Shown here piece by piece: positions 7,977 to 17,917 of a stretch of DNA of 64,000 bases. Origin of the DNA: Phenylobacterium parvum (lineage in GTDB: Bacteria > Pseudomonadota > Alphaproteobacteria > Caulobacterales > Caulobacteraceae). Position 1 is the stretch's first letter, and every line of letters starts with the position of its first letter. The stretch is from contig NZ_CP029479.1 of assembly GCF_003150835.1 (NCBI RefSeq), positions 682,001 through 746,000 of the forward strand. The letters are read 5' to 3'. The notes below the pieces were generated by a model. The model had not been told where the DNA came from. It made no database searches and worked only from the letters and a program-made list of their open reading frames with translations. The translations under genes were made by a program, and so were the position numbers.

Positions 7977-8770
7977 GGCGGGGCCTCCTTTTCGGGATCC
8001 TGGGCGCGGCGCTGGCGGTTTCGGCCGCCGGCGCCGGGCCGGGGCCTGCGCCCGCCCAACCCACCTCCGCCATCCTCCTGAAGGCAGAGGAGGGCGACCG
8101 CGCCTGCTACATGACGCTGAGGGATGACCGGGGCGCGACGGTCGAGGCCTATGCGGACTTCGCCATCTGTGAGCGTGCGCCGTCGCTCCTGGGGCGGAGG
8201 GTGGAGTTCACCTGGGAGATGCTCAACCTGCCGGCGCCCGACTGCGGGGCCGAGCCGGGGTGCCCCCGGTCAGTGCGGGTCCCCGTGGCCATGGGCGCGC
8301 GCCTTGCCGCCGCCCCAGCCCTGAAGGCCGGAAGCCTATGCACCCCCTCCGAGACGGTGGTTTTCGCCTGCCAGGCGGGCGCCCGCACGGTCTCGGTCTG
8401 CGCCGCGCCCGGTACGGGGGGCGACAGGGTCCAATACCGCATCGGCCGCCCCGGCGCGGCGCCGGAACTGGTGCTGCCCAAGGCGCCGGGCCGTCCCCGC
8501 GACGTCACTTCGGGGGATACCCTTATGTTCTCGGGTGGCGGCGGGGCCTGGCTGCGCTTCGCCAACGGCCCCTACGCCTACACGGTCTACAGCGCCATCG
8601 GCCGCTGGGGCCCCGGCGGCGCGCCGGCAGAGAAGGCCGGGGTCCTGGTCGAGAAGGCCGGCGGCCGGATCGCCAACCTGCGCTGTACAGCCGGCGAGGC
8701 GGCGCTGGACGCCGGCTGGATGTCCGCCGCCGGGGTGCGCCCGGACGCGCGGGGCTTCGACCTGCCCTGA
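7973..8770 (+). CDS. Exported protein of unknown function
   Basis: A 265-residue protein beginning at a GTG that overlaps the preceding stop (GTGA), so it is translationally coupled to the acyl-CoA dehydrogenase. A signal peptide (about residues 1-28, ending APAQP) is followed by a Cys-containing mature domain (Cys at YMTLRDD side, FAICERAP, APDCGAEPGCP, GSLCTPS, FACQ, VSVCAAP, LRCTAG). A segment VSVCAAPGTGGDRVQYRIG followed by FSGGGGAWLRFANGPYAYTVYS looks like a beta-rich exported domain. I do not recognise a named family. Its place inside a CoA-pathway operon is unexpected. Confidence 0.8.
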   Translation: MRRGLLFGILGAALAVSAAGAGPGPAPAQPTSAILLKAEEGDRACYMTLRDDRGATVEAYADFAICERAPSLLGRRVEFTWEMLNLPAPDCGAEPGCPRSVRVPVAMGARLAAAPALKAGSLCTPSETVVFACQAGARTVSVCAAPGTGGDRVQYRIGRPGAAPELVLPKAPGRPRDVTSGDTLMFSGGGGAWLRFANGPYAYTVYSAIGRWGPGGAPAEKAGVLVEKAGGRIANLRCTAGEAALDAGWMSAAGVRPDARGFDLP

Positions 8771-8821
8771 CGGGGCGGCTTTCGCTTGCAGTCGGCGGCG
8801 GGGCCGTTCATCCAGAGCGCC

Positions 8822-10594
8822 ATGGACACCGCCCTGGCTCCCCTCCGTGACCCCCGCTACGCCCCCGCCCGGCTTGAGATCGAGGTGCGGCCCGACGGGA
8901 CCCGGATCCTGTTCAACCCGACGCCGCTGGACGGGCCCTTCCCGACGGTGGCCGGGCCTCTCCTGCACTGGGCCGAGCGGGCGCCCGCCCGGACCTGGCT
9001 GGCGGAGCGGTCGGGCGAGGGCTGGCGCGAGGTCAGCTACAGCGAGGCCGCCGGGCGCATCGCCGCCCTGGCCGGCGGCCTGCGCGAGCGGGGGATCGGC
9101 GGGCCGCGGCCCCTGCTGATCCTGGCCCGCAATGGGATCGACCACGCCCTCATCAAGTACGCGGCCATGAGCCAGGGCATGCCGGTCGCCCCGGTCTCGC
9201 CCCAGTACGGACTGCCGGGCGCCAATCTCTCGCGCCTGGCCCAGGCGGTGGAGACCTTGAATCCGTCGGCCATCTACACCGAGGACGCGGCCCTGTTCGG
9301 CGAGGCCCTGGCGGCGCCCTTCCTGGCCGGCCTGCCGGTGATCGCCGGCCGCAACGCCCGGCCCGGGGATGTGTCCCTTGGCGACCTGGAGCGGGCCTCG
9401 CCGGCGGCCCCTTCGGCCCGGCCCGAGGACCATGCCAAGTACCTGCTGACCTCGGGCTCCACGGGACGTCCCAAGGCGGTGATTAACCTGCAGGAACGCA
9501 TGGCCGCCAACGCCGCCCAGGTGGCCGCCTGCTTCGCCGACCCGGATCCGCCGGTGGTGGTCAACGCCGCGCCCTGGAGCCACAGCCTGGGCGCCAACGC
9601 CATCCTGCACATGGTGCTGCACCGGGGCGGGACCCTCTACATCGACGCCGGCCAGCCGGTGGAGGGCCGCTTCGGAGACACGGTGCGGAACCTCCGCGAA
9701 GTGGCGCCGACCTATCACAACATGGTCCCGGCGGGCTGGATGATGTTCGCCGGCGAGCTGGAGGCCGACCCGGACCTGGCCCGCAACTTCTTTTCCCGCG
9801 TCCGGCTGATGCAGTACGGCGGCGCCAACCTGGGGCAGGAGATCTGCGACCGCATCCAGGCCGTGGCGGTGCGCACGGTGGGCGAGCGGATCAGCTTCTC
9901 CTCGGGCTACGGCGCCACCGAGACCGGGCCGACGGCGGCCAATGTCCACTGGCCCAACACCCGAATGGGCCTGATGGGCCTGCCCCTGCCGGGCACGACG
10001 GTGAAGCTGGCGCCCCTGGCCGGCAAGCTGGAGTTCCGGGTCAAGGGGCCGCAGGTCACGACCGGTTACCTGGGCCAGCCCGAGCTTTCGGCGGCCAGCT
10101 TCGACGAGGAGGGCTTCTACCGCCTGGGCGATGCGGCCCGACTGGTGGACCCGGAGGACATCCGCAAGGGCCTGGCCTTTGACGGGCGCCTCTCCGAGAA
10201 CTTCAAGCTGGCCAGCGGGACCTTCGTGAACGTCGGCGAGCTGCGCATTGCGGTGATTGGCGCCGTCGGCGACGCCGTGACCGACGCCATCGTCTGCGGC
10301 GAGGGCGAGTCGGGGGTGGGCCTGCTGTTCTATCCGCGTCCAGGCTACGCCCCTGAGGCGGTGATGGAAGCCGTGCGCACGGCGGTCGCGGCGCACAACG
10401 CCCGGGGCGGCGGCGGAGCGGGGCGGGTGGCCCGGGCCCTGGTCCTGCCGGACGGTCCCGACGCCAACGCCGGGGAGATCACCGACAAGGGCTACATCGC
10501 CCAGCCGGTGGCGCGGGCCTTGCGGGCCGCCTTCATCGGGCGGATGTTCGCAGGCGCGCCGGACCCCGGCGTGATGGTTTTCGAGACGGCCTGA
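8822..10594 (+). CDS. AMP-dependent acyl-CoA synthetase, feruloyl-CoA synthase-like
   Basis: A 590-residue adenylate-forming ligase. The ATG at 8822 is chosen; a TTG 36 bp earlier is possible. The P-loop-like A3 motif LLTSGSTGRPKAV, and SSGYGATETGP (A5) are clear, with the A8/hinge region at YRLGDAARLVDPEDIRKGLAFDGR. The N-terminal opening (DPRYAPARLEIEVRPDGT) and overall length match the feruloyl-CoA synthase subgroup, which activates aromatic acids with ATP and CoA. The exact acid cannot be read from sequence. The C-terminal domain is variant: SENFKLASGTFVNVGELR holds the place of the usual catalytic lysine loop. It lies between the unknown exported protein and a ThDP enzyme. Confidence 0.87.
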   Translation: MDTALAPLRDPRYAPARLEIEVRPDGTRILFNPTPLDGPFPTVAGPLLHWAERAPARTWLAERSGEGWREVSYSEAAGRIAALAGGLRERGIGGPRPLLILARNGIDHALIKYAAMSQGMPVAPVSPQYGLPGANLSRLAQAVETLNPSAIYTEDAALFGEALAAPFLAGLPVIAGRNARPGDVSLGDLERASPAAPSARPEDHAKYLLTSGSTGRPKAVINLQERMAANAAQVAACFADPDPPVVVNAAPWSHSLGANAILHMVLHRGGTLYIDAGQPVEGRFGDTVRNLREVAPTYHNMVPAGWMMFAGELEADPDLARNFFSRVRLMQYGGANLGQEICDRIQAVAVRTVGERISFSSGYGATETGPTAANVHWPNTRMGLMGLPLPGTTVKLAPLAGKLEFRVKGPQVTTGYLGQPELSAASFDEEGFYRLGDAARLVDPEDIRKGLAFDGRLSENFKLASGTFVNVGELRIAVIGAVGDAVTDAIVCGEGESGVGLLFYPRPGYAPEAVMEAVRTAVAAHNARGGGGAGRVARALVLPDGPDANAGEITDKGYIAQPVARALRAAFIGRMFAGAPDPGVMVFETA

Positions 10595-10631
10595 CGCAGA
10601 GGGCCACGACGGGCGGGGAGGCCCAGAGCAC

Positions 10632-12173
10632 ATGAACGGCGCCGACGCCCTGATGCGCACCCTGGTGGAAAACGGCGTGACCGCCTGCTTCGCCAACCCC
10701 GGCACCAGCGAGATGCAGTTCGTCAGCGCCCTGGACGGCCAGCCGGCCATGCGCCCGGTCCTGTGCCTGTTCGAGGGGGTGGCGACCGGCGCCGCCGACG
10801 GCTATGGCCGCATGGCCGGGACGCCCGCCTGCACCCTGCTGCACCTGGGCCCCGGCTATGGCAACGGCCTGGCCAACCTGCACAACGCGCGCCGGGCCTA
10901 CACCCCCATTGTCAACGTGGTGGGCGACCACGCCACCTATCACCGCCAGTACGACGCGCCCCTGAACTCGGACATCCCGTCCATCGTCGCGGCCAACTCC
11001 CTGTGGGTGAAGTCGGCCGACAGCCCGGACGAGGTGGCCGCCGTGACCGCCGAGGCGATCACCGCCAGCCATGGCCCGCCCGCTGGCCCGGTCAGCCTGA
11101 TCCTGCCGGCCGACGCCGCCTGGACCGAGACCTCGACGACCTTCGCCCCCGCCTCGCGCCCCGGCCCGAGGGCGCCGGACGGCGAGGCCGTGGAGGCCGC
11201 CGCCCGCGCGATCAAGGCCGCCAAGGCGCCCGTGGTCCTGATCGGCGGCGGCGCCTGCCTGGAGGCGGGCCTCGTCCAGGCCGCCCGTCTGCAGGCGGCG
11301 GGCGTGCGCGTCATGGCTGACACCTTCGTGGCCCGCCAGCCGCGCGGCGCCGGCGTCTTCGCCCCGGCCCGCATGCAGTACTTCGGCGAGGCCGCCCTTG
11401 AGGAACTGGCCGGGACCGACCTGATGGTCTTCGCCGGCACAACCCAGCCGGTGGCCTTCTTCGCCTATCCCGACCGGCCCAGCGTGCTGGTGCCCGAGGG
11501 CTGCGCCACCCTGTCCCTGGCGGACCGGGCGACGGACGCCGCAGCGGCCCTGCAGGCCCTGGCCGACGCCCTGGGCGCCCCGGCCTCTGGACCAGTCCAG
11601 CCCCTGAAGCGCCCGGCCAGCCCGGCCTCCGGGCCCCTGACGCCCCAGGCCTGTGGCGTAGCGGTGGCCCGCCACCTGCCCGAAGGCGCCATCCTGTGCG
11701 ACGACGCGGTGACCTCAGGGGGTGGTGTCGCCGTGCCCTGCATGACCACGGTCCCGCATGAGGTCCTGGCCCTGACCGGCGGCGCCATCGGGATCGGCGG
11801 GCCCATGGCCATCGGGGCGGCGGTGGCCTGTCCGGACCGCAAGGTGGTGTCCCTGAACGGCGACGGGTCGGCCATGTACACGGTGCAGAGCCTCTGGACG
11901 ATGGCCCGCGAGAAGCTGGACGTGACCGTGGTGGTCTTCGCCAACCACAGCTACCGCATCCTGAATATCGAGATGAGCCGGACCGGCGCCGGCCAGGCGG
12001 GCCCCTCGGCCCGCAAGCTGCTGGACCTGGGCGATCCCAACATCGACTGGGTGTCCCTGGCCCGCGGCCTGGGGGTGGAGGCCGTGCGCTGCGAGACCGG
12101 CGAGGCCTTCGAGGCCGCCTTCGCCAGCGCCATGTCCCAGCGTGGCCCGCGCTTCATCGAGGCGGCGATCTGA
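10632..12173 (+). CDS. ThDP-dependent enzyme, acetolactate synthase large subunit-like
   Basis: A 513-residue protein of the pyruvate oxidase/benzoylformate decarboxylase superfamily. CLFEGVATGAADGYGR carries the catalytic Glu that activates thiamin diphosphate; the C-terminal SLNGDGSAMYTVQSLW followed by ANHSYRIL is the GDG-N cofactor motif. The middle domain is the Rossmann-like part. It matches a group labelled acetolactate synthase large subunit-like in automatic annotations, but there is no regulatory subunit gene nearby and no other Ile/Val synthesis gene in the cluster, so a catabolic decarboxylase or lyase is more likely. It begins 37 bp after the ligase gene with a GGGGAGG site. Confidence 0.87.
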   Translation: MNGADALMRTLVENGVTACFANPGTSEMQFVSALDGQPAMRPVLCLFEGVATGAADGYGRMAGTPACTLLHLGPGYGNGLANLHNARRAYTPIVNVVGDHATYHRQYDAPLNSDIPSIVAANSLWVKSADSPDEVAAVTAEAITASHGPPAGPVSLILPADAAWTETSTTFAPASRPGPRAPDGEAVEAAARAIKAAKAPVVLIGGGACLEAGLVQAARLQAAGVRVMADTFVARQPRGAGVFAPARMQYFGEAALEELAGTDLMVFAGTTQPVAFFAYPDRPSVLVPEGCATLSLADRATDAAAALQALADALGAPASGPVQPLKRPASPASGPLTPQACGVAVARHLPEGAILCDDAVTSGGGVAVPCMTTVPHEVLALTGGAIGIGGPMAIGAAVACPDRKVVSLNGDGSAMYTVQSLWTMAREKLDVTVVVFANHSYRILNIEMSRTGAGQAGPSARKLLDLGDPNIDWVSLARGLGVEAVRCETGEAFEAAFASAMSQRGPRFIEAAI

Positions 12174-12200
12174 GATCCATCGCCGATGGTGCAACAAAAA

Positions 12201-12228: not shown

Positions 12229-12252
12229 TCGTCGTTCCGGGGTGAGCCGGTG

Positions 12253-13575
12253 CTACTTGTTGCCGGGGAGGGCGCAGTCCCTGGAGAAGGCGCAGCCCAC
12301 GGCGTTGATCGGCGTCAGGGGCTCGCTCTTGTACTCAAGGATGTAGCCCTTGAGGCCGTCGGCGCAGGCGGTCTCGAGGTAGGTCGTCCCGGCCGCGGTC
12401 TTGCCGACCACGCGGGTGGCCGAGACCTCGCACTCGTTCTTGCCCATCTTCTTCAGGTCCGCCGTGACAACCCGGTTGGAGGCTTCCGGCTTCGAGAACG
12501 AGCAGCGGTAGCCGACGATCGGCGCGCGGGCGCAGTCCACCACCTGGGTGGTCTCGGCCTTGGCCGTGAAGATGCCGACGGCGCCGTCAGGCCGGTTGCC
12601 GCAGGCCATCTCGACCACGTCCTTGCCGGGAGGCGAGGGGAAGGGGGCGTACTTGGAGACCTGGCAGTCGAAGCCAGCCTTCTTGGCCAGGTTCGAATAG
12701 AGCCCGGCCTGGGCGGTCTGGGCTTCCTTGGCGTCGGTCAGGGTGCAGCCGCCGAGCAGGGCCATGGCCTTCTCGCAGGAGGTGGCCTGGGCGAACTGGC
12801 CCTTCTCGACCTTGTAGATGTAGCCCTTTCCGTCCTGGCAGGACGCTTCGTAATAGCTGGCCCCGCCCTGGGACATGCCGATGTAGCGCCGGTCCTTGAC
12901 CACGCAGCCATTGTTGGCGGCGGCGGCGTAACGGTCGACCACGGCCAGGCGGTAGGCGGCGTCGCGCAGGGTGCACTTGATGTTGCCGTCGCTGGCGTCG
13001 AAGACGAGGCAGTCGTTGGCCACCGCTGAGCCGTCCGGGTTGGCCGGAGCGTCGACCTGGAGGACGTAGCCCGCGCCGCCCTGGCAGGACACCTCGAGGA
13101 AGGTGTTCTTGGCGGTCTGGCCGATGCCGCGGGCGGCGTCCGGCGTGCAGCTCAGGCCAGCCTTGGTGAGAAGGGGCGCGAGGTCGGCGAGCGGGTTGGC
13201 GTTGCCGGGAAGCTTGCAGGGCAGGGACGGCGGCTTGCCATCCGGCTGGGTCGAGTTGGCCTCGATGCAGCTGAAGGCGGTGGGCTTCACGCCGGGAGGG
13301 GCCTGAAGGACGAATCCAACGCCGCGGTCGCAGTCGATCTCGTAGAAGCTGGTTTCAGCCTTGGTCTTCGGATCCTTCATCTTGCCGATCTGGCGGGCGT
13401 CCGTGACCTGACAGGCGATGCCGGCCGCCTGGGCGACGGCGGGGGCCTCGGCCATGCCCACGGTGCGCGCGGCGGCCAGGGCGGCCTCTTCCTTCTTGGA
13501 GGCCGAGACGGCTGCGACCGTTCCCATGGCCAGGGCCAGGGCCGCTGTGGCCAGGCCGATTGCGACGCGTTTCAT
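12253..13575 (-). CDS. Exported protein of five four-cysteine repeats
   Basis: A 440-residue protein; the start at 13575 (MKRVAIGL) has a GGAGGG site. A signal peptide spans about residues 1-25. The rest is five repeats of 78-88 residues whose first cysteines are at 55, 143, 224, 304 and 382. Each repeat has four Cys (55/82/103/120; 143/164/189/201; 224/246/267/277; 304/325/348/358; 382/404/428/434) and a YxExxCxxGxGYxx-type core such as SYYEASCQDGKGYIYK. Even Cys numbers and export suggest two disulfides per repeat. An inverted repeat GGGAATATCTGTTCCC at 13591-13606 precedes the ribosome site. I do not recognise a named family; binding or structural roles are guesses. Confidence 0.87.
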   Translation of the reverse strand: MKRVAIGLATAALALAMGTVAAVSASKKEEAALAAARTVGMAEAPAVAQAAGIACQVTDARQIGKMKDPKTKAETSFYEIDCDRGVGFVLQAPPGVKPTAFSCIEANSTQPDGKPPSLPCKLPGNANPLADLAPLLTKAGLSCTPDAARGIGQTAKNTFLEVSCQGGAGYVLQVDAPANPDGSAVANDCLVFDASDGNIKCTLRDAAYRLAVVDRYAAAANNGCVVKDRRYIGMSQGGASYYEASCQDGKGYIYKVEKGQFAQATSCEKAMALLGGCTLTDAKEAQTAQAGLYSNLAKKAGFDCQVSKYAPFPSPPGKDVVEMACGNRPDGAVGIFTAKAETTQVVDCARAPIVGYRCSFSKPEASNRVVTADLKKMGKNECEVSATRVVGKTAAGTTYLETACADGLKGYILEYKSEPLTPINAVGCAFSRDCALPGNK

Positions 13576-13761
13576 GATGGGGTTCCCTCCGGGAATATCT
13601 GTTCCCAAGGCTCTTAATCCCATGCCGCCCGGAACGGCAAGGCGTCATGACCGGCAAACCCCTTCGCATGCCCCCGTGACGGTTTCTGGGCGGCCTCGCA
13701 GGGATTTGGGTTTGATCCCGGGCCGTCGAAGGCCGAGACTGGCGCCCAAGGAGTCCTGTTC

Positions 13762-14826
13762 ATGCGCGATGGTTTCGAAGATCCGGTCCTGGAGGCCCAC
13801 AAGGCGAAGATCACCTATCCCTTCCCGGGCGGTCCGGAGCAGGGCGAGGCGGTGGACGTCGCCCCCGGGGTGAAGTGGCTGAGGATGCCCCTGGGCGGGT
13901 CGCTGGCCTGGATCAATGTCTGGGCGATCCGCGAAGCGGGAGGCTGGGCCATCGTCGACACCGGCCTGGGGGGACAGGCGACCCGGGAGTCCTGGCGCAA
14001 GGCCCTGGCCGGTCCCCTGGAGGGCCTGCCGGTCACCCGGGTTTTCGTGACCCACATGCACCCCGACCACATCGGCATGTCCGGCTGGATGACTCGCAAG
14101 TTCGGATGCCGCCTCTGGATCACACGACTGGAATTCCTGATGTGCCGGTCCCTGTCGGCTGACACCGGCCGCGAGGCGCCCGACGACGCCTTGGTCTTCT
14201 ACCGCGCGGCCGGGTGGGACGAGGAGGCCCTTGAGGATTACCGGGCCCGCTTCGGCGGCTTCGGAAAGAGCCTCCACGCCCTGCCGGACAGCTTCCATCG
14301 CCTGTCCGACGGCGACGTCGTCCCGATCGGCGACCATGACTGGAAGGTCGTGGTCGGCTCCGGCCACTCGCCGGAGCACGCCTGCCTCTGGTGCCCGGAG
14401 CTGAAGCTGATGATCAGCGGCGACCAGGTCCTGCCCAAGATCACCTCCAACGTCTCGGTCTTCCCGACGGAACCCGCCGGCGATCCCCTGACCGACTGGC
14501 TGACCTCCCTGGCGCGGATCCGCGGGATCGTGCCGGACGACGTCCTGGTCCTGCCGGCCCACAATGAGCCCTTCCATGGCCTGCATGCCCGGATCGACCA
14601 CCTGATCGGCGGCCACGAGCGCAGCCTGACCCGGCTGCACAAGCTGCTGGAGGAGCCCAAGCGGGCCATAGACACCTTCCACATCCTCTTCCGGCGCAAG
14701 ATCGACCGCTGGACCCTGGGCATGGCGACGGGCGAGAGCCTGGCCCACCTCAACTGCCTGCTGGCCCGAGGCCTTGCCGTCCGCACCCAGGATGAGGCCG
14801 GGGTGGACTGGTACCGTGCCGTCTGA
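13762..14826 (+). CDS. Metallo-beta-lactamase fold hydrolase
   Basis: A 354-residue protein starting at the ATG after an AAGGAG site. Metal-binding motifs are in order: THMHPDHIG (HxHxDH), GSGHSPEH, ISGDQ and LPAHNEPF, consistent with a binuclear zinc site. The C-terminal helical extension (from about residue 265) resembles the MBL/winged-helix group that includes LACTB2-like proteins. Reactions in this fold range from lactonase to thioesterase and nuclease, so the substrate is unknown. The next gene (acetyltransferase) starts inside its last codons. Confidence 0.88.
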   Translation: MRDGFEDPVLEAHKAKITYPFPGGPEQGEAVDVAPGVKWLRMPLGGSLAWINVWAIREAGGWAIVDTGLGGQATRESWRKALAGPLEGLPVTRVFVTHMHPDHIGMSGWMTRKFGCRLWITRLEFLMCRSLSADTGREAPDDALVFYRAAGWDEEALEDYRARFGGFGKSLHALPDSFHRLSDGDVVPIGDHDWKVVVGSGHSPEHACLWCPELKLMISGDQVLPKITSNVSVFPTEPAGDPLTDWLTSLARIRGIVPDDVLVLPAHNEPFHGLHARIDHLIGGHERSLTRLHKLLEEPKRAIDTFHILFRRKIDRWTLGMATGESLAHLNCLLARGLAVRTQDEAGVDWYRAV

Positions 14827-15301: not shown

Positions 15302-15927
15302 GCGATCCTCCCGTCACCGTGATCCGGGCGAGCCCTGCCGAAGAGGCCGACATCCGCCGCCGGGTGCGGGAGGTCGATCCCGCCAGCCTGGGCCCGGACC
15401 GGGTGATCGCCACACCGGCCCATGCCGCCTCCCTGGCGCGGATGCTGGCCGATCCCAGGGTCTCGGACCCCATTTACGACCTGCCCCGGCCGATCACCGA
15501 GGCCAGCGTCCGGGCCTGGATCGAGGCGACGGCGGCGGACCAGGCGCGAGGCGAGGCGGTGCTGATCCTGTCCCTCGACGAGGCGGGCGAGGTCGCCGGC
15601 TATTCCCGTTTCAGCGTCTGGCCGGACAGGTCCTCGGCCGAGATCGCCGGCGCGACCCGGGCCGACAGGCAGAACCGCGGCCAGGGGACGGCGGGTGCAG
15701 CCCGGTCCTTCGGCTGGATGTTCGAGGTTCTGGGCGTGCGCCTGGTCGGCCTGACGGCGGCCCTGGACAATGTCCGCTCGGCCCGGGTGATCGAGGCCGC
15801 CGGCTTCCGTCCCATGGGCGAGCGCGACAGCCGCCGTCCCGACGGGACCGTCCGCCGCTCGCTCTACTGGGAGATGACCGCCGACGAATGGCGCCGGGTC
15901 CGCGACTCCAGGGAAGCGCCTTCGTGA
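15298..15927 (+). CDS. GNAT family N-acetyltransferase
   Basis: A 209-residue GNAT protein whose ATG overlaps the upstream stop. The acetyl-CoA loop is weakly kept as [21 protein letters not shown], and the later [25 protein letters not shown] is the common RimJ/RimL-type signature of protein or antibiotic acetyltransferases. The acceptor is unknown. Its 3' end overlaps the convergent ogt gene by 64 bp. It is cotranslated with the SAT-like gene. Confidence 0.82.
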
Positions 15928-16433
15928 TCCAGGAGCCAGGCCTTGCGCTCCAGCCCACCTGCATAGCCGGTCAGGGCGCCTGACCGGCCGATCACCCGGT
16001 GGCAGGGGATCAGCAGGGACACGGGGTTTGATCCGTTCGCCAGGCCCACCGCCCGGACCGCCTTTGGCGAGCCCACCTGAAGCGCGATGTCGAGATAGCT
16101 CCGGGTTGCGCCGGGGGGAGTGTCGCAGAGGGCCGTCCAGACCTGCTCCTGGAAGCGCGTCCCTGCAGTGGCGCAGTCGAGGCGGGCCAGGGCGTCCGGG
16201 GCGCCCTCGAAGTATCCCTCAAGGGCCTCGGTCACCCGGGAGGGCGCCTCGCCGGCCCGGAGGGCAAGGCCAGGGTAGAGGCGCGACATGCGCTGGCGGA
16301 TCCGCGGGAGGCCGGAGCCGAAGTCCAGGCCCCGGATGATCCCGGCCTCGTCGAGGATCACCTCGATGCAGCCGAGGGGCGAGGCGACTTCCGAGACGCT
16401 CAGTCGGAGGGGCGCGGGGGCGTCGATCTTCAT
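15864..16433 (-). CDS. ogt: Methylated-DNA--protein-cysteine methyltransferase
   Basis: A 189-residue O6-alkylguanine-DNA alkyltransferase. The active-site PCHRVIG (Cys acceptor) and the upstream [32 protein letters not shown]-binding region are diagnostic. It repairs O6-alkylguanine by suicide transfer to its cysteine. It lacks the Ada N-terminal domain, which is instead carried by the overlapping upstream gene (4-bp ATGA overlap at 16430-16433), so the two form an alkylation-repair operon. The C-terminus extends about 17 residues beyond the usual end and is antisense to the GNAT gene's 3' end. Confidence 0.93.
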
Positions 16434-17917
16434 TGGGCAGGTCCTTTGCTTTGGGATGCGGCGTCCGCGTCCTTTGCCCAGAGGTGGGCGGCGGCGTAGG
16501 CCCGCCAGGGGCGCCAGGCCTCGGCCTGCGCCAGCAGGGCTTCCGGGGTGGGCCTGCGACCTTCCGGGTCTGCCGCCGCCCTCAGGAGGGCCAGGTCCGA
16601 GTGCGGGAAGGCGTCGGGCTCGCGCAGGGCGCGCATGGCGATGTACTGGGCGGTCCAGGCTCCGACCCCAGGTAGGGCCGTGAGCCTGCGGACGGCGCTT
16701 TCGAGGTCCTGGCCGGGGCCGAACAGCTGGCCGTCGTCCAGGGTCATGCGGGCGATGGCCGCCAGGGCCCGGCCCCGGGCCCGGGGCATGGGCAGGGACT
16801 CCGGGTCGAGGCCGGCGAGGCGCTCCGGTCCCGGGAACAGCCTGTCCAGGCCGAACCGGCGGGCCGGCTCGAAGTCGAGGCGAACGCCGTGGCGCTCCGC
16901 CAGTCGACCCGCCAGGCCCCGGGCGGCGACGACCGACACCTGCTGGCCGAGGATGGCCCTGACCGCCACTTCGAAGCCGTCCCAGGCGCCCGGCGCCCGA
17001 AGGCCCGGCCGCCGGGCGAGGAGCGGGCCAAGATCCGGATCCTTGCCCAGGTGCGCCAGGACGGGCTCAGGGTCGAGGGCGAGGTCGAATACCCGCCGCA
17101 CCTGTGCCAGAACCCGGGGAAGGACGCGGAGGTCAGGAAACCAGAGGCTGGCCGACAGGTTGTCGCCCCGCCCGGGCTCGACCCGGACCACTCCGGCGAC
17201 GCCCGCGACCGCCAGTGTCCGCACATATGCCTGGCCGTCGATCCGCTCGACACCCGCCACCTGCCGCTGGGCGAAGAAGTCCAGCATACGGGACCAGTCG
17301 TAGGGAGGCCGGTAGGCGAGCCGGAGGGTTACCCCATCGGCCAAGCCCGCCTCGGCGCCAGGGCGCCTGCGCAGGCTCGAGGGCGGATGGCCGCAGGCGG
17401 CCTGGAAGGCCTCGTTGAACCGCCGGATGCTGCCGAAGCCCGAGGCGAGGGCCACCTCGGACATGGCGAGGCCGGTCTCCAGGACCAGGCGCCGGGCCAT
17501 GAGAAGCCGCCGTGTCTGGGCCACCGCGACCGGGGAGGCCCCGAGGTGTTCCTGGAAGAGCCGCCTGAGATGTCGTTCTCCAACGCCCAGGCGCCGGGTC
17601 AGGTCCTGGAGGCCGCCAGAGTCGAGGACCCCGAGGTCGATCAGGGCCAGGGCCCTGGAGACCGTGTTGGCCGTGCCGTTCCAGGCGCCGAGTTCCGGGG
17701 CGGTTTCCGGCCGGCAGCGCAGGCAGGGCCGGAAGCCCGCATGCTGGGCCGCCGCCGCGGAACCAAAGAAACGAACGTTCTCGGGCCTGGGCGTACGGGC
17801 CGGACAGACGGGCCGACAGTAGATTCCGGTTGTGGTGACACCCGCGAACAGCCGTCCGTCGAGACGGATGTCCCGGGTGGCGAAGGCGCGAAAACTGGCG
17901 GCGGGATCCAGGTCCAT
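16430..17917 (-). CDS. Ada-type regulator fused to AlkA DNA-3-methyladenine glycosylase
   Basis: A 495-residue three-part protein. Residues 1-75 are the Ada zinc domain with Cys34, Cys38, Cys65 and Cys68, which accepts methyl groups from phosphotriesters. Residues about 85-185 are an AraC-type helix-turn-helix ([17 protein letters not shown]). Residues about 195-490 are an AlkA glycosylase with the HhH motif [17 protein letters not shown] and the catalytic Asp in FPHSD. This is the known Ada-AlkA arrangement in which sensing and base excision are joined while Ogt is separate. It probably activates its own operon on alkylation damage. It overlaps ogt by 4 bp. Confidence 0.92.

Follow-up and report, generated by a model that had tools for sequence, protein, structure and literature searches.

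An apparently undescribed four-cysteine repeat domain in a predicted exported protein widespread among Caulobacteraceae

The window analysed here, a stretch of 64,000 nucleotides from Phenylobacterium parvum (positions 682,001 to 746,000 of contig NZ_CP029479.1), carries on its minus strand a gene whose product is built from five similar repeats (positions 12253-13575 of the window). The list of open reading frames and the sequence agree on a protein of 440 residues followed by a stop codon, at the coordinates that an earlier note on this DNA had given without naming the strand, and a ribosome-binding site (GGAGGG, 13585-13590, minus strand), read from the sequence, lies 9 nt 5' of the ATG at 13575. 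Comparison with a homolog of 92% identity gives dN 0.044, dS 0.37 and a dN/dS of about 0.12; the low dN relative to dS is a mark of purifying selection and thereby supports the coding status of the minus-strand frame. The opposite-strand ORF (12250-13029, plus strand, 259 residues) was rejected as a mirror of this GC-rich coding frame, the conserved frame being that of the minus strand. Downstream of the gene, a terminator-like hairpin (12230-12199, minus strand) with a stem of 14 bp, 11 of them G-C pairs, and a T-rich tail bears out the terminator described in the earlier note; it lies between convergent genes and may for this reason serve both of them.

When the genomic context was compared across genera, no operon partner of the five-repeat gene was found, and its neighbours are unrelated metabolic genes. 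A divergent gene (13762-14826, plus strand) for a metallo-beta-lactamase-fold hydrolase (PF00753 with PF21221) stands beside it in 11 of the 17 genera examined, a proximity that looks like plain synteny and gives no functional clue. Further along, the minus strand carries a DNA-alkylation repair pair (15864-17917) overlapping by a few bases and consisting of an O6-methylguanine-DNA methyltransferase and a fusion of Ada Zn-binding, HTH_18 and AlkA_N. On the other side (8336-12200, both strands), antisense ORFs of 804 and 380 residues mirror AMP-binding and TPP-enzyme coding frames and are probably GC-rich artefacts rather than genes.

The protein begins with a Sec-type signal peptide (residues 1-25, MKRVAIGLATAALALAMGTVAAVSA; 13501-13575, minus strand) that ends in a putative cleavage site, and this agrees with the Sec signal noted previously. 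A pattern check run on 41 homologs looked for a lipobox and for a twin-arginine motif, and neither is present in the signal peptide of the five-repeat protein. Residues 26-42 (13450-13500, minus strand) form an N-terminal extension, which is helical in the structural model and runs on into the helix of repeat 1. The remainder of the chain, likewise encoded on the minus strand, consists of the repeats themselves: repeat 1 (residues 43-124; 13204-13449) with cysteines 55, 82, 103 and 120 and Glu 79; repeat 2 (residues 125-205; 12961-13203) with cysteines 143, 164, 189 and 201 and Glu 161; repeat 3 (residues 206-281; 12733-12960) with cysteines 224, 246, 267 and 277 and Glu 243; repeat 4 (residues 282-360; 12496-12732) with cysteines 304, 325, 348 and 358 and Glu 322, which has diverged yet keeps all of these marks; and repeat 5 (residues 361-440; 12256-12495) with cysteines 382, 404, 428 and 434 and Glu 401. 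The twenty cysteines thus fall into five sets of four whose first members are residues 55, 143, 224, 304 and 382, exactly as had been claimed, and none of 200,000 random placements of 20 cysteines was equally regular.

The repeats also resemble each other beyond their cysteines. In a shuffle comparison that held the cysteines fixed, every pairing among repeats 1, 2, 3 and 5 reached z values of 5.7-11.3, whereas repeat 4 scored the same as shuffles against repeats 1-3 (z 0.6-1.3) and only weakly against repeat 5 (z 2.7). A profile made from all five homolog positions recovers repeat 4 at E 9e-18, a value that is circular in part. The earlier note had described a YxExxC...GxGY core for each repeat, of which E-x-x-C and a downstream glycine are general; the tyrosine and the GxGY are not uniform, the residue two before the glutamate being F, F, Y, V and Y in repeats 1-5 and the glycine motif reading GVGF, GAGY, GKGY, GAVG and LKGY.

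These features are strongly conserved. Across 41 aligned homologs, which represent most genera of Caulobacteraceae and range down to 23% identity, all 20 cysteines and five glutamates, one per repeat, are invariant, and every one of the 41 has exactly 20 cysteines after residue 30, with no extra cysteine in the mature part. Among 620 repeats from 139 proteins, the first three cysteines are found in all and the fourth in 611, the other nine being alignments that end before it, so that no cysteine is ever replaced; the glutamate is kept in 619 and the glycine in 606. The glutamate is the sole invariant polar residue other than cysteine that is common to all repeats. The invariance of the cysteines without any extra one argues for full disulfide pairing, and the four cysteines of each domain almost certainly pair as disulfides. 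The proposal of an exported, disulfide-rich repeat protein gains support in this way.

The five repeats are conserved to about the same extent (34-38% mean pairwise identity), as one would predict for an array in which all domains are in use, and they are not equivalent to each other. When repeats were scored with position-specific profiles, 365 of 375 taken from five-repeat proteins that were not in the alignment are matched best by the profile of their own position. The repeats of three-repeat forms are assigned mostly to positions 1, 2 and 3 (75 of 93). Both counts are somewhat favourable because the proteins scored are related to those from which the profiles were built. Since the repeats keep their positional identity, the five-fold array seems to be older than the radiation of the Caulobacteraceae, with positions that have diverged in a fixed way.

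Protein searches detect a homolog, in full or shortened form, in 195 of 199 Caulobacteraceae genomes and in all 22 genera, and near relatives at 84-92% identity come from Phenylobacterium and other Caulobacteraceae MAGs. Among 150 genomes of the order, a full-length profile finds matches in 31, every one from Caulobacteraceae, and none in the other families sampled. The plasmid and phage records searched hold no homolog of the five-repeat protein. Copy number and repeat number vary within the family: the genome of the window has a single copy and the five-repeat gene only; one genus (g3, 81/81 genomes) has five-, three- and one-repeat versions, of which the three-repeat version is the most common; and in another (25/25 genomes) two five-repeat paralogs are often present. 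The one- and three-repeat paralogs of g3 (L105 and other loci) are at times adjacent in one genome, which suggests that the domain expanded within that genus.

Relatives also appear outside the family. A more diverse repeat profile gives weak matches to single-domain proteins in other alphaproteobacteria, and one of these, a protein of 140 residues with a lipobox (G1072), served as the entry to a family with at least 14 members in another alphaproteobacterial order, where its distribution is patchy (L200-L213; 14 of the order's 43 genomes). Aligned against the Caulobacteraceae repeats, this family reaches an hhalign probability of 96% and a score of 47.9, while 100 decoys in which the cysteine columns were kept score at most 18.3. 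It shares the four cysteines with the repeat and resembles it in their spacing and in sequence pattern; it differs in having one domain instead of five and a serine (YWSxxC) where the repeats have glutamate, and a lipobox occurs in at least one member. A single-domain four-cysteine protein with an N-terminal hydrophobic stretch and valine in place of the glutamate (L092, G523) was seen in one of the two genomes of its genus. In a genome from another family, a three-repeat protein with the same 12 cysteines (L184, G1046:C62:563-1252) has a Gly/Ser/Arg-rich insertion in repeat 1 and neighbouring ORFs that resemble a SulP-type transporter; it may be a true relative, a transfer or assembly contamination, and it needs care because contamination of the G1046 assembly is listed at 5%. 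The proteins of G523, G1046 and G1072, with one, three and one repeats, are plausible relatives of the repeat domain. Matches in G740, G954, G534, G476, G444 and G373, also outside Caulobacteraceae, lie at E 0.0003-0.05, are in part chance-like and were not counted as relatives.

Library searches agree with the statement that no recognised family covers the protein. Pfam has no family for it at E <= 10, and with the 41 homologs gives nothing above noise; PHROGs yields chance-level matches, the best (E 7e-4, in 4 of 41 homologs) being to a methyltransferase family without other support; and PDB sequences match neither the five-repeat protein nor two profiles (A1, A2). The sole NCBIfam match, NF049870 (MakCD), covers 38 of 122 positions at 16.8 bits (E 0.0055) and recurs weakly in 5 of 41 homologs. 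It could be taken to link the protein with MakC/MakD, which serve as accessory proteins to a tripartite toxin in Vibrio, a kinship to which we give practically no credence: the score is far below the curated cut-off of 110 bits, and the A1 and A2 profiles find no PDB sequence although MakC/MakD structures have been solved. The five-repeat protein moreover carries a Sec-type signal, whereas MakC and MakD reside in the cytosol, and the paper that describes them considers just one disulfide, which might join two chains (PMC11484084). The link was rejected on score, location and cysteine content and is refuted as far as sequence goes. In the literature, no paper on the five-repeat protein was found, nor were any partner, phenotype or expression data.

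Structure prediction, which had been proposed for one repeat, was made for repeat 5 and for the whole chain; it suggests five like units with equivalent cysteines, and non-repeating cysteines were not seen in the models. The full-length AlphaFold2 model (pLDDT 89, pTM 0.70) contains five copies of a unit made of one helix and four antiparallel strands. Repeat 5 modelled alone (80 residues, with 85 repeats as alignment; pLDDT 90.6, pTM 0.78) has its helix at 3-16 and strands at 24-32, 37-44, 51-57 and 60-67, with Cys22 before strand 1, Cys44 at the end of strand 2, and Cys68 and Cys74 after strand 4. This arrangement would bring the four cysteines of a repeat together at one end of the sheet, with the first two on neighbouring strands. 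Argued from strand register alone, Cys1-Cys2 and Cys3-Cys4 would be the simplest pairs in the model; paired losses offer no guide here, as no cysteine is lost in the 620 repeats. A domain defined by four cysteines in order, E/S-x-x-C followed by a Gly-rich turn, and a helix plus four-strand fold describes the 620 repeats, the models and, by sequence, the remote single-domain family. The idea of a candidate new repeat domain is supported. Beyond what the earlier note could see, the domain is found in other proteins too, namely the three- and one-repeat forms within another Caulobacteraceae genus and the single-domain relatives in another order.

Comparison of the models with known folds points in several directions. 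The four-strand antiparallel sheet of each repeat resembles a blade of the beta-propellers (WD40, NirS, lectins), and a whole-chain Foldseek search returns 81 rows at E <= 0.001 in which propellers are matched blade by blade. Identity with a propeller was rejected, as the model appears to form no closed ring and all top rows have whole-chain TM-scores of 0.10-0.18 and an rmsd of at least 20 A. With one repeat, Foldseek finds no PDB match at E <= 0.001; a designed cystatin fold is among its top rows at E 0.43, the best value reached, and against viral structures the best E is 0.09, which is not meaningful. VIA-align places monellins first (Z 6.2, rmsd 2.9 over 70 residues), a Z under 8 to which APH kinase lobes and propeller blades come close, so that the resemblance can be taken no further than a common arrangement. 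The cystatin fold has a helix wrapped by a four- or five-strand antiparallel sheet, and the likeness to the cystatin/monellin fold would lie in one helix packed against a four-strand antiparallel sheet; there is no sequence similarity, and the number and placement of cysteines differ.

This cystatin-like layout makes a multidomain periplasmic protease inhibitor the main rival explanation, in which cystatin/monellin-like or PepSY-like domains with two disulfides each would block envelope or foreign proteases. Some members of the monellin/cystatin fold do occur as tandem, disulfide-stabilised domains: multicystatins and kininogen are tandem-domain protease inhibitors, and the domains of kininogen have two disulfides each, a plan that the five-repeat protein would share. 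Three of the 41 homologs also give a weak Pfam match to the Spi protease inhibitor (E 0.022). PepSY and BLIP-like envelope domains are similarly exported, small, alpha+beta and often in tandem, but they are absent from the fold search and have no Pfam match here, PepSY not being among the weak matches of the homologs. Since the monellin scores may reflect a common arrangement, the QxVxG hairpin motif typical of inhibitory cystatins is absent from the five-repeat protein and present in only 5 of 41 homologs, and no conserved protease gene lies nearby, we regard an inhibitor as unlikely.

The invariant glutamate invites two other explanations. It could be a ligand or metal site instead of having a structural role, and in a periplasmic metal-binding protein either the four cysteines of each repeat or the glutamate with neighbouring groups would bind Cu, Zn or Ca. 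The clustering of the cysteines at one sheet end and the near-constancy of the glutamate would suit such a function, which we nevertheless consider somewhat less probable even than inhibition. CxxC, CxxCH and HxxxH were absent from all 41 homologs in the pattern check, and cysteine spacing varies widely between repeats (5-23 residues from Cys3 to Cys4 in these homologs). The compartment would be oxidising, and the genome also encodes a DsbB (111 bits), so that an oxidation pathway is at hand. The single-domain relatives, furthermore, keep the cysteines and not the glutamate, from which it follows only that the fold can do without this residue. That the same residue is the catalytic one of a secreted enzyme, as its standing as the only invariant non-cysteine polar residue might hint, is very improbable: a chain would then have five identical sites, none of them paired with an invariant acid, base or nucleophile, the single-domain relatives have serine at this position, and no enzyme family is matched.

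The gene has no operon partner and its product no group of conserved residues such as an enzyme would show; together with the fixed positional identity of the repeats, this favours a binding or scaffold role, and we lean slightly towards a Sec-exported periplasmic array, oxidised by the Dsb system, that acts as an envelope binding or scaffold protein rather than as an enzyme. Five head-to-tail domains of about 80 residues, each a helix with four strands, would be exported to the periplasm by the Sec pathway, where DsbA and DsbB would oxidise every domain. Two disulfides per domain would form: in the most likely pairing, Cys1-Cys2 would bridge the ends of the first hairpin and Cys3-Cys4 would shut the loop that follows strand 4. 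Together they would lock the small domains into a stable, protease-resistant array. Because the sequence character of each position predates the radiation of the family and has been retained since, the five domains would not be interchangeable, and the array would most likely show five different surfaces to fixed partners. More tentatively, and with clearly less confidence, we speculate that this uncatalogued domain family provides five positionally fixed, doubly disulfide-locked domains that each bind a different partner, and that the protein serves as a periplasmic organiser or inhibitor.

Altogether, the repeat is a genuine and apparently undescribed domain, without a curated family in the libraries searched and ordinary in its overall design. 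Disulfide-rich, tandem-domain exported proteins are a familiar general type, and the interest lies rather in the fact that nearly all members of the Caulobacter family carry this uncharacterised, probable envelope protein. The repeat alignments define a domain suitable for a new Pfam entry, and the gene is a clear deletion target in Caulobacter. With twenty cysteines in one chain, the protein, if it is so oxidised, would also be one of the more demanding natural tasks for the Dsb system of alphaproteobacteria. Its near-universal retention in the Caulobacteraceae, with all cysteines invariant, implies that it must have a useful job in the envelope.
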